This document shows positions 2,304 to 6,369 of a stretch of 64,000 nucleotides of DNA, one piece after another. A model generated the notes under the pieces. It did no database searches. It was not told the origin of the DNA and worked only from the letters and a program-made list of their open reading frames with translations. How positions within the stretch are numbered: position 1 is the stretch's first letter; each line of letters opens with the position of its first letter. This DNA is from Prochlorococcus sp. MIT 1300. Its GTDB lineage: Bacteria; Cyanobacteriota; Cyanobacteriia; PCC-6307; Cyanobiaceae. The position numbers and the translations under genes were made by a program. The DNA is taken from assembly GCF_034092375.1 (NCBI RefSeq), contig NZ_CP139302.1, positions 1,674,001 through 1,738,000 of the forward strand, given 5' to 3'.

Positions 2304-3776
2304 CTAATTTTCTCTGATAATCCAGTTTACAAGAGTTCTTACTCCATAACCCGTTGCTCCTGCAGGATTAACTCCTGACCCTTTTTCTGACCAAACAGTT
2401 CCAGCAATATCTATGTGTGCCCAAGAGATTGATTGGTCGACAAATTCTCGGAGAAAAAGAGCAGCTGTAATTGAGCCTCCTGGACGTGGGCCTGTATTTT
2501 TAATATCAGCAAGCATGGATTTTAGTCCTTCTTTATAAGAGTTCTGTAGCGGCATACGCCAAAGTCCTTCTCCTGCTTTATGAGCTGCTTTGGTTAACTC
2601 ATTGGATAGTTCGTCACTATCTGTCCATAGACCAGCGATTTCATCGCCCAATGCAATGACACACGCACCAGTAAGTGTTGCTAAATCAATGATTGAATCT
2701 GGTTCTAATTTGCTTGCATAAACTAGAGCGTCAGCAAGTGTAAGCCTCCCCTCTGCGTCGGTGTTATTGATTTCGATAGTAGTTCCATTTGACGCTTTGA
2801 CTATATCTCCAGGATGAACTGCAGATCCGTTTACCATGTTTTCACAAGCAGCAACTATGAAATGAACCTCAACCCCTTGGGGACGTAACTCTGCTATGGC
2901 TCTTGCTGCACCAATTACCGCAGCACTTCCTCCCATGTCAAATTTCATTAGTTCTATTTGAGAAGCCCCTACTTTTAAGTTGTATCCTCCAGAATCAAAG
3001 GTCAGCCCTTTCCCCACTAGTGCCACTTTTCTCTGAATTGGACCATTTGATCGATATGAAAGATGGATGAATTTTGGATCTAAGTCTGAACCTTGGGCGA
3101 CTGCAAGGTAGGCGCCCATTCCTTTTCTATTACATTCTTCTCTACTAAGTACCTTTAACTGCAATCCAAATTCTCTGGAAAGTTTTGTAGCTTCTTTAGC
3201 AATTGCATCGGGGGTAAGGCTGTTTGGAGGTGCTCCTACAAGTTCTCTCGCTAATTCCACCCCTGAACAGATTGGAGAAATATTTTTGAAATTATCAAAA
3301 TCATTTGTGTCTACTCCAATGAATTCAATACGTTTAGGTGGTTGTTTTGTTTCTGGATTGCTCCTAAAGCGCAAGTCTTTGAAGAGTGATAGGCGTATTG
3401 CTTCGGCTACGACATTAATTAAGTCTTTTGAGTGAAGTTTCTTCCAAGGGAAGAATATCCCCAAAGGGCCTTCGCTACCTAGAGATTCTTTTGCACTTTT
3501 GGCAGCCGCATTACGAAATGTATTTACTGAGAGGTCTTCCAGTTTCCCTAAACCAACCACAATCAGTTTGAGTGGGGAATTTTGGAGGAGTTGGAAGCTA
3601 GTTATTTCTCCATTTTCAGCCTGAAAATTTTGCTTCTCAAGAATCTTTGTTAGAGGAGCATCGAAGCGGCTTTCCAATGGATGCAACTGAGTTTCAAAGT
3701 CCCCTTCATGAATGCCAACAATCAGCACAGCGCCGGGCCATTCCTGCAAGCTTGCAGGAGTTAGAGAGAATTCCAT
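2304..3776 (-). CDS. pepA: Cytosol aminopeptidase (leucyl aminopeptidase, M17)
   Basis: 490 residues with the N-terminal macro-like domain and C-terminal M17 catalytic domain. It releases N-terminal amino acids from peptides using two metal ions. Catalytic signatures are intact: GKGLTFDSGGYNLK (metal and catalytic Lys), FDMGGSAAV, and NTDAEGRLTLADAL, the family signature with metal-binding Asp and Glu. The gene is transcribed on its own at the 3' end of a minus-strand group and converges with the small gene at 2030. Confidence 0.95.
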   Translation of the reverse strand: MEFSLTPASLQEWPGAVLIVGIHEGDFETQLHPLESRFDAPLTKILEKQNFQAENGEITSFQLLQNSPLKLIVVGLGKLEDLSVNTFRNAAAKSAKESLGSEGPLGIFFPWKKLHSKDLINVVAEAIRLSLFKDLRFRSNPETKQPPKRIEFIGVDTNDFDNFKNISPICSGVELARELVGAPPNSLTPDAIAKEATKLSREFGLQLKVLSREECNRKGMGAYLAVAQGSDLDPKFIHLSYRSNGPIQRKVALVGKGLTFDSGGYNLKVGASQIELMKFDMGGSAAVIGAARAIAELRPQGVEVHFIVAACENMVNGSAVHPGDIVKASNGTTIEINNTDAEGRLTLADALVYASKLEPDSIIDLATLTGACVIALGDEIAGLWTDSDELSNELTKAAHKAGEGLWRMPLQNSYKEGLKSMLADIKNTGPRPGGSITAALFLREFVDQSISWAHIDIAGTVWSEKGSGVNPAGATGYGVRTLVNWIIREN

Positions 3777-3812: not shown

Positions 3813-4406
3813 TTATTTGATGTTTGCCGTGAAAGGTGTAGCCCAATGCCCCCTTGTTTCTTTGTTGAAAGGTGGTAGCCAAAGTTGAATTAGATGTTGC
3901 TCTAATTTTCTTCTATGCTTGGTCTCTTCTGGGACATCTGTGTAGAAGCGAATGCTTAGTTGGCTTTCTAACCCTGCTTTGGATAGTGCTTCGGTATAAG
4001 CAGCTAAATAAGATTTACAGTCATGGTCACCTTTCCATCGACGATCGGCAGCAATTGTTTCACCTATATATAAGAGTAAATGTGTGTTGAAATTTGTAGG
4101 TCGATCCATGACTAGATAAAGAGCGGGTCCTTCATGCGGATTGCTTGGCCATCTCCAAAAACTGAGTGGTAAGGGTGTTAATTTGAGTGGATTTAAATAA
4201 ATACTTGGATCTTTACGCTCGTTATTTTCTATTAGCGATTTTTGTACAGGAGAAGATGATTCTCTCTTAAATAGCTTTGACTGGTGGAACTGTACTCTCC
4301 TTTGCCATTTGATTAAGACTTCCTTGGTCAGTTTAATTTCTGTAGGTATATTATCCCCATCTGAAATACTATGCTCAGGGAAAAGTTGTCCTTGAGATGA
4401 TTTCAT
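3813..4406 (-). CDS. GIY-YIG nuclease domain protein
   Basis: About 197-199 residues. The C-terminal half (residues about 95-190 counted from the upstream ATG at 4412) carries the GIY-YIG signature: ALY (97-99), YIGET (115-119), Arg in DRRWKG (124-125), Glu in LEQHL (171) and Asn in PPFN (183). These are the positions of the conserved Tyr, Tyr, Gly, Arg, Glu and Asn of the family. The N-terminal 90 residues are basic and unassigned. I favour the second ATG (4404-4406) because it overlaps the upstream stop as ATGA; the first ATG would give a 10-base overlap. A structure-specific DNA endonuclease is likely, but the substrate is unknown. Confidence 0.75.
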   Translation of the reverse strand: MKSSQGQLFPEHSISDGDNIPTEIKLTKEVLIKWQRRVQFHQSKLFKRESSSPVQKSLIENNERKDPSIYLNPLKLTPLPLSFWRWPSNPHEGPALYLVMDRPTNFNTHLLLYIGETIAADRRWKGDHDCKSYLAAYTEALSKAGLESQLSIRFYTDVPEETKHRRKLEQHLIQLWLPPFNKETRGHWATPFTANIK

Positions 4407-5035
4407 TTCCATCCAGAAGGAAGTACTGGGCCTGATTTCTTTAAGCCAAATCTCACTTTGCCAATAAGATTCTCGATAATGCTTGCTGGCAATAAGAGAC
4501 GCTCTTGAAAATCGGCTAAATTCTTAAAAGGCCGCCTTTGTCGTTCTTTTAAAAGAGTTTGAATGTCTTTCTCGTTGAACTTAAGACCATTTTTCAATTC
4601 AGTAGAAGTGGCATTATTTATATCTACTATAGGGGTATCAGCTTTGGGCACTGGGTCGCCATACCACCTGAAAATTAGATGAGGACTCCATTGTTCTTTT
4701 AGATGATTAGGTAGCTCTAGTAATTGGAATAACTCTTCTTCGCAACTTAGCTGAACTCCACCTTGTTGGAGCTTTATCATTAGCTCAGCCATGTTTTCTG
4801 AACATTTGGGAAGCTTTTGCCAATCTGAAAAATTAGCTCGGTTAACGTCTATTTGAAGGCTGGCAAGGTTTGAATTGCTCACTCCTTGTTTCTTTTTAAG
4901 TGCTATTAATTCTTTTTCGATTTCCTGAAGCTTTATCCGTCTAGAACGACCTGAGGCCTCTTGCTTCTTTGGCAGTTGGCCCGTTGCTTCCAAGATTTTC
5001 CGGGCCAGAGGATCCAGCCAGTGGCCCCTGGTCAT
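4403..5035 (-). CDS. Tandem helix-hairpin-helix (ComEA-like) protein
   Basis: 210 residues. The N-terminus starts MTRGHWLDPLARKIL, followed by a basic helical stretch (residues 25-50). Two ComEA/UvrC-like HhH segments follow: about 63-122 (begins VNRANFSDWQKLP) and about 137-197 (begins VDINNATSTELKNG and contains RPFKNLADFQERL). HhH pairs bind DNA backbones without sequence specificity. There is no signal peptide or membrane anchor, so it is not a classic competence ComEA. It is translationally coupled to the GIY-YIG gene that follows, which suggests the two work together. Confidence 0.7.
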   Translation of the reverse strand: MTRGHWLDPLARKILEATGQLPKKQEASGRSRRIKLQEIEKELIALKKKQGVSNSNLASLQIDVNRANFSDWQKLPKCSENMAELMIKLQQGGVQLSCEEELFQLLELPNHLKEQWSPHLIFRWYGDPVPKADTPIVDINNATSTELKNGLKFNEKDIQTLLKERQRRPFKNLADFQERLLLPASIIENLIGKVRFGLKKSGPVLPSGWK

Positions 5036-5191: not shown

Positions 5192-5764
5192 CTATTTTAT
5201 AACAACAATATCTATTTGATACTCTTCAATCATATTATTGTAAATTGAGGTGTCACGCTCCACTATTTCTGGATCAGTGCACCCTCCTGGGTGGAGGCTA
5301 TACCAATTTGGCGAAAAAGTGGTTTTAATTGATGTGATCTCTAGATTTACGCCAAGGTATAGTCCTAGAGGTGTATTAGAACCACCTCTTAGAATAACTT
5401 CTTTGTTGATTCTTTGTGAAAAAAGCCCTAAACTTGAAGGGGTTATTACTCTTACATGAGTGGGGTCGTTGAAGAAGTTGTCATGCCTAAAATGAGGAAC
5501 CTTTATTAGAATAATTGCACCTGATTCGCATACCCTATACATTTCCTGGATTACTTTTAGATAAACATCTGTCTTATGACCTAGATGTTCAAGCACATGG
5601 ATTAGTTTTATTTCCTCCACGGAATTATCTGCCCAAGGCCAAGGGAAAGTTTCGAGATCGTGTTTAACATCTGGGTTACCATATTTATCCACATTGATAT
5701 ATCCATTTAGGCGTTTTTCGCCACATCCCAGATTGAGCTTTAAACCTGACATTCCCTTTGACAA
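5192..5764 (-). CDS. Class I SAM-dependent methyltransferase, substrate unknown
   Basis: 190 residues. Motif I is LNLGCGEKRLNGYINVD (residues about 10-26). A later segment, HVLEHLGHK, matches the region after motif II, and GAIILIKVPHFRHDN matches the strand that carries small-molecule methyltransferase substrates. The fold resembles the Methyltransf_11 group. Similar proteins are often found with sugar or surface polysaccharide genes, but none is adjacent here. It stands alone between the HhH pair and the divergent DUF1825 gene. A 13-bp perfect inverted repeat lies 33 bases upstream of the ATG. Confidence 0.75.
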   Translation of the reverse strand: MSKGMSGLKLNLGCGEKRLNGYINVDKYGNPDVKHDLETFPWPWADNSVEEIKLIHVLEHLGHKTDVYLKVIQEMYRVCESGAIILIKVPHFRHDNFFNDPTHVRVITPSSLGLFSQRINKEVILRGGSNTPLGLYLGVNLEITSIKTTFSPNWYSLHPGGCTDPEIVERDTSIYNNMIEEYQIDIVVIK

Positions 5765-6042: not shown

Positions 6043-6369
6043 ATGGCATTTTTTGAATCCGAGATTGTTCAAGAAGAGGCTAAGAGGCTTTTTAATGACT
6101 ATCAGCAGTTGATGCAGCTTGGTTCTGATTATGGAAAGTTTGATCGTGAAGGCAAGAAGAAGTTTATTGACACTATGGAGGATCTTATGAGCCGATATCG
6201 TGTTTTCATGAAGCGTTTTGAGCTTTCTGAAGACTTTCAAGCCAAGATGACTGTTGAGCAATTGAGAACTCAGCTCAGTCAATTCGGAATAACCCCTGAA
6301 CAGATGTTTGATCAAATGAATTTGACCCTGGAAAGGATGAAAGCGCAGTTAGAACAGAGCTCAGAATGA
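6043..6369 (+). CDS. DUF1825 family protein
   Basis: 108 residues from the ATG at 6043, which has GGGAGG about seven bases upstream; the open frame extends 25 codons further but that part does not look like protein. The sequence MAFFESEIVQEEAKRLFNDY and the rest are almost entirely helical and highly charged. It matches the cyanobacterial family DUF1825, whose function I do not know. It lies 45 bases before tyrS and may share its transcript. Confidence 0.85.
   Translation: MAFFESEIVQEEAKRLFNDYQQLMQLGSDYGKFDREGKKKFIDTMEDLMSRYRVFMKRFELSEDFQAKMTVEQLRTQLSQFGITPEQMFDQMNLTLERMKAQLEQSSE

Follow-up and report, generated by a model that had tools for sequence, protein, structure and literature searches.

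A gene pair on the minus strand of Prochlorococcus sp. MIT 1300 probably encodes a stand-alone GIY-YIG endonuclease tethered to the replication clamp together with an optional HhH partner, a joint reading to which we give a probability of about 0.6. In the mechanism that we propose, a short motif (QGQLF) in the flexible N-terminal tail of the GIY-YIG protein would let the beta sliding clamp recruit the protein to the DNA lying behind the replication fork; the HhH protein, co-translated but optional, would assist by binding DNA and would not be one half of the enzyme. As the likeliest pathway we tentatively propose mismatch repair that depends on MutS1, in a family without MutL, with the nuclease nicking the strand: MutS1, bearing the same clamp motif, would locate the mismatch and the clamp, loaded in a fixed orientation, would present the nuclease to the new strand. 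We infer clamp binding, catalysis, and the link to mismatch repair from sequence and predicted structure. The locus lies in a 64,000-nucleotide stretch (the window) and comprises the following features:

4403-5035, minus strand: HhH protein gene (ORF, 210 aa; Pfam HHH_3, E 9.8e-07).
3813-4412, minus strand: GIY-YIG nuclease gene (ORF, 199 aa; Pfam PF01541, E 0.0012).
4403-4412, minus strand: overlap of the HhH stop and the GIY-YIG start (ATGA at 4403-4406 if the start is Met3).
2304-3776, minus strand: pepA (leucyl aminopeptidase), the constant downstream neighbor in the family, adjoining the GIY-YIG gene in nearly all fetched family loci.
6043-6369, plus strand: DUF1825-like gene, the divergent neighbor, also near the HhH gene in the distant genome G358.

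Both are conserved genes and not chance ORFs, with 50 to 62% identity in the 80 relatives kept. The order given in an earlier note on this DNA, an HhH gene followed by an overlapping GIY-YIG gene, was found in place, on the minus strand. The ATGA overlap that it described holds with the second ATG (Met3, 4406-4404) but not with the first in-frame ATG (4412-4410), which gives a 10-nt overlap with the HhH gene. A methyltransferase-like gene (5192-5764, minus strand) is located between the HhH and DUF1825 genes in the window; none was seen in the relatives' loci that we read.

The GIY-YIG chain carries three features of interest:

3843-4160, minus strand: GIY-YIG catalytic domain, residues 85-190 (Y99, Y115, R125, H130, E171, and N183 invariant).
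4380-4394, minus strand: predicted beta-clamp-binding motif QGQLF, residues 7-11, in the disordered N-terminal tail (conservation; same dialect in MutS1 and DnaE).
4230-4244, minus strand: second conserved QxSLF-like motif, residues 57-61 (QKSLI in MIT 1300; alignment A3).

The predicted fold of this chain is GIY-YIG. Its PF01541 match (19.5 bits) is below the curated cut-off of 22.6, and when the GIY-YIG profile was run against the sequences of solved structures it gave a chance match only. The nearest folds to the AF2 model (mean pLDDT 84.9) were T4 EndoII (Z 8.1), the GIY-YIG domain of UvrC (Z 6.6), and Eco29kI (Z 6.0), the EndoII alignment spanning residues 43-184 with an rmsd of 3.2 over 102 aligned residues and 17% identity. 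All the catalytic landmark residues had been recognized in the earlier note, and the alignment bears this out, since 42 cyanobacterial relatives all share Y99, Y115/G117, R125, H130, E171, and N183; of the Arg124/125 that it named, only R125 is invariant.

In the N-terminal tail, which the earlier note had left unassigned, Q7 (98%), L10 (100%), and F11 (98%) are conserved, while the surrounding residues reach 10 to 31%, and the AF2 model is of low confidence there. A conserved motif in variable surroundings that are modeled with low confidence typifies linear motifs in disordered tails. Q..LF was present in 86 of 94 distinct relatives. Cyanobacteria outside the picocyanobacterial family have QLxLF a few residues past the start in nearly every GIY-YIG protein, and within the family QGxLF predominates, many members having Tyr, Phe, Lys, or other residues at position 2. 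The published consensus for high-affinity binding to the bacterial beta clamp is QLxLF, in which position 2 accepts other residues, weaker binding being expected for Gly, and Hda likewise has its clamp motif in a disordered N terminus (PMC11139829). By its sequence, then, the GIY-YIG protein looks like a beta-clamp binder, with a QLxLF-type motif in a flexible region. The second motif is also conserved in alignment A3 (Q57, 95%; L60, 88%; F61, 86%).

The Q-x-x-L-F tail motif was noticed by inspection and not specified beforehand. Its background in the first 40 residues of the other ORF proteins from the fetched loci was 2/1,333 for QL.LF and 19/1,333 for Q[LGFIMA].LF. Genome-wide, the QGxLF codon sites numbered 47, versus 45 in the reversed control, and therefore the motif is meaningful only by position and frame. 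When the QGxLF form alone was searched in frame at gene N termini of MIT 1300, only MutS1 and the GIY-YIG protein were found. A C-terminal QGELF match (L232) was discarded because it fell in a short ORF with no preceding start codon and antisense to other ORFs.

DnaE and MutS1 provided an independent check of this dialect, as neither had been used to find the tail motif. The QGNIF of MIT 1300 DnaE aligns column for column with QADMF, through which E. coli DnaE binds the clamp at an internal site. MutS1 binds the clamp in other bacteria, and QGSLF, QGNLF, QGDLF, or QKNLF was present at its N terminus in 14 of 15 genomes of the picocyanobacterial family, the MutS1 of one genus (G004), without QGxLF, being an exception; a C-terminal QLxxF was found in 7/7 other cyanobacteria. 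Given the same dialect in DnaE, at a known clamp site, and in MutS1, we take QGxLF as a probable clamp motif of this lineage, and we hold a clamp-tethered GIY-YIG endonuclease to be more likely than not. The picocyanobacterial MutS1 (G000:C1:1288939-1291716, outside the window; L164 and L218) bears QGxLF on a long N-terminal extension, whereas the clamp-type motif is C-terminal in other cyanobacteria, so that it has apparently switched ends.

MutL was over the family cut-off in none of 200 genomes of the picocyanobacterial family (also 0/19 in another search), the weak matches to the MutL model there being GHKL fragments of about 50 residues, and among the 79 Cyanobacteriia genomes sampled outside the family it was matched in 78. 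The absence covers the whole family and not just some Prochlorococcus strains. Several P. marinus strains had been described without mutL, with mutS universal and mutH absent from cyanobacteria (PMC5101192). MutS1 exceeded the cut-off in MIT 1300 and 25 of 30 relatives, the remaining ones being mostly incomplete or split, and the family protein retains the mismatch-reading F-x-E motif. With MutL lost, MutS1 kept, and a GIY-YIG nuclease near-universal and equipped with a predicted clamp motif, this nuclease becomes a candidate for the missing nick. There are precedents both for joining MutS to a GIY-YIG nuclease, as in plant MSH1 (PMC12292046), and for a clamp-linked nuclease able to stand in for MutS-MutL, as in NucS (PMC8228993). 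It is plausible, if rather doubtful, that the GIY-YIG nuclease substitutes for MutL in mismatch repair. We hold equally tentatively the fuller version of MutL-independent repair, which would have both MutS1 and a GIY-YIG nickase tethered to the clamp by an N-terminal QGxLF, the nickase doing the nicking of MutL. The loss of MutL in the family is a single event, so its match with the near-universal GIY-YIG gene amounts to one data point. A strict rule by which GIY-YIG replaces MutL across the phylum fails, since many genomes carry both: the gene is present in 30 of the 79 other Cyanobacteriia genomes, every one MutL-positive. Elsewhere in the phylum, G245 and a few group f29 genomes lack MutL, and these do not carry GIY-YIG.

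These 30 MutL-positive genomes, and the plasmids that carry the gene, argue that the role of the nuclease is independent of the loss of MutL. A clamp-tethered GIY-YIG nuclease might have a job other than mismatch repair: it might trim or nick DNA at the fork (flaps, gaps, or branched structures) or assist recombination, with the HhH protein adding affinity for branched DNA. The tail motif and the DnaE/MutS1 dialect fit such a role equally well, and the HhH modules resemble the DNA-binding ComEA. However, it leaves unexplained the near-universal retention of GIY-YIG in the sole family that lost MutL, and we regard it as a serious possibility that falls short of even odds.

We consider it unlikely that the Q-x-x-L-F motif serves some other shared partner or a structural role, in a GIY-YIG protein that does not bind the clamp. 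Clamp binding by this protein is a prediction, and the Gly, Tyr, Phe, or Lys at position 2 in many picocyanobacteria would suit that reading. Nevertheless, DnaE has the same dialect at its known clamp site and MutS1 has it too, and the low confidence of the tail in the model is what is expected of a linear motif.

The HhH protein was resolved into three parts:

4979-5023, minus strand: N-terminal helix HWLDPLAR..., residues 5-19, family-conserved (30 sequences).
4658-4861, minus strand: ComEA-type HhH module 1, residues 59-126 (AF2 pLDDT about 95; ComEA 8dss_B match).
4445-4630, minus strand: HhH module 2, residues 136-197 (Pfam 137-195; GspK-type HhH, Z 7.2-7.3).

The two HhH domains read in the first gene from sequence proved, by Pfam and by comparison of the AF2 model, to be two tandem ComEA-type modules. 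The HHH_3 match (PF12836) is over the cut-off, module 1 superposes on ComEA 8dss_B with Z 9.8 and an rmsd of 2.0 over 65 aligned residues, and W6, L7, D8, P9, A11, R12, and L15 of the N-terminal helix are invariant in the 30 sequences. The tandem HhH of UvrC was absent among the structural matches of the HhH model, an absence that proves nothing.

Within the 200 genomes of the picocyanobacterial family, GIY-YIG was present in 198 and HhH in 145; 53 of the 198 GIY-YIG-bearing genomes had no detectable HhH, and none of the 200 had HhH without GIY-YIG. Whole Prochlorococcus lineages are without HhH, and several fetched loci have no HhH-type gene, or a different gene, between GIY-YIG and the DUF1825/tyrS genes. 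On the PepA tree (78 scored loci), HhH gain and loss took at least seven changes, two of them forced by well-supported branches. A LuxR-type regulator occupies the HhH site in the MIT 0701-like lineage (L001, L013, L014, and L147). On the same tree, a contig labeled Rubrivirga (L055, from a Rhodothermota MAG) fell inside marine Synechococcus and is probably mis-binned.

Where both genes are present in the family, they adjoin, in all 34 fetched loci and in 55/55 further genomes compared, with a gap of 2 to 53 nt. In one MAG (G036; L235, G036:C3), HhH and GIY-YIG form a single open frame of 474 codons, which could be an assembly error, and its sister genomes keep the genes separate. The adjacency and this one fusion make some degree of coupling likely. 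Outside the family, the 79 Cyanobacteriia genomes had both genes in 28 cases, HhH only in 36, GIY-YIG only in 2, and neither in 13, a weakly positive association (odds ratio 5, p 0.04, uncorrected for relatedness). In the genomes inspected there, the two genes are unlinked, with one exception, G235, in which they are 0.8 kb apart with another gene between them. In G213 and G358, the HhH gene comes instead after a TM2-domain-like gene (the domain being named from sequence reading). In loci L140 and L143 of other cyanobacteria, it lies directly behind or overlaps such a gene, and in L143 it is near a DUF1825 gene, as in the MIT 1300 window; given that neighborhood, HhH may have occupied this site the longer of the two.

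The earlier note had proposed that the pair is a split UvrC-like nuclease, its two chains forming one structure-specific enzyme, and had named independent distribution of the genes as refuting evidence. Such a distribution is what we found, in the family genomes with GIY-YIG only and in the HhH-only (36/79) and GIY-YIG-only (2/79) genomes outside it. We reject a split UvrC because a full-length UvrC is encoded elsewhere in the MIT 1300 genome, and in nearly all relatives, and because the two genes are distributed independently. The GIY-YIG chain did not match the NCBIfam uvrC model at E up to 1, and the UvrB-binding and RNase H-like domains are absent from both chains (199 and 210 aa), which contain only a tail plus GIY-YIG and a helix plus two HhH modules, respectively. 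An obligate two-chain enzyme is not supported either, as GIY-YIG persists without HhH and the genes are unlinked outside the family. What stands of the proposal is a GIY-YIG protein that would act on DNA, with HhH as its coupled partner, given the adjacency at the 34 loci and 55/55 genomes and the one fusion. A looser two-chain, UvrC-like nuclease might still draw on the constant adjacency, the fusion, the UvrC GIY-YIG domain among the nearest folds, and the weak association outside the family. Against it, HhH is missing from those 53 family genomes, the genes are unlinked elsewhere, UvrC is intact, and the HhH modules are ComEA-like, so we think it improbable. We see in HhH an accessory, linked to GIY-YIG loosely and in a lineage-specific way.

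Just as improbable is a domesticated restriction-type or mobile-element nuclease (EndoII/Eco29kI-like) that arrived on plasmids and is directed against foreign DNA, a reading favored by its nearest folds and by the GIY-YIG relatives on 33 plasmid records, mostly of Nostoc, but opposed by the situation in the family, where the gene is near-universal, chromosomal, and next to pepA, almost always in one copy, with no constant methyltransferase partner there and no phage homologue found when searched for. Plasmid matches H1 to H10 (L243 to L245) place the GIY-YIG family on Nostocales plasmids, twice near an Hsp20 gene.

MutS1 occurs without MutL in Prochlorococcus and marine Synechococcus, and cyanobacteria lack MutH, yet the mutation rate of HLII Prochlorococcus is ordinary and low (3.5e-10; PMC10837832). 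A near-universal GIY-YIG nuclease with a predicted clamp motif makes the question of how replication errors are nicked directly testable. If the clamp-tethered reading is true, this would be a GIY-YIG nuclease tethered to a bacterial replication clamp, of which we found no description in the open literature searched, and, if its repair role is also true, a GIY-YIG nickase would have taken over the step of MutL in the most abundant photosynthetic organisms on Earth.

Compared with known systems, the window pair has in common with UvrC the GIY-YIG domain fold (Z 6.6) and associated HhH motifs. UvrC, in contrast, has UvrB-binding and RNase H-like domains that the pair lacks, while the HhH of the window is two ComEA-type modules on a separate, dispensable chain and the predicted N-terminal clamp motif is a feature of its GIY-YIG protein. 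ComEA shares the HhH module fold (Z 9.8), but the window HhH protein has two modules per chain and a family-specific N-terminal helix. T4 endonuclease II, the best structural match, is likewise a stand-alone GIY-YIG protein, although it is a phage enzyme with 17% identity, and we know of no clamp tail in it. EndoMS/NucS is a RecB-like mismatch endonuclease of genomes without MutS and MutL; the GIY-YIG protein differs from it in fold and in the presence of MutS1 in the genome, and from the MutL class (GHKL ATPase plus C-terminal endonuclease) in being of GIY-YIG fold. Bacterial MutL endonuclease and EndoMS/NucS are clamp-tied repair nucleases (PMC8228993), as proposed for the GIY-YIG protein, but their folds are unrelated to GIY-YIG, and MutL is absent from the whole picocyanobacterial family. 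Plant organelle MSH1 combines MutS and GIY-YIG (PMC12292046), as we propose for picocyanobacteria; it is, however, one fused chain, found in plants, some protists, viruses, and a few bacteria, whereas the picocyanobacterial proteins are separate and linked only by their motif dialect.
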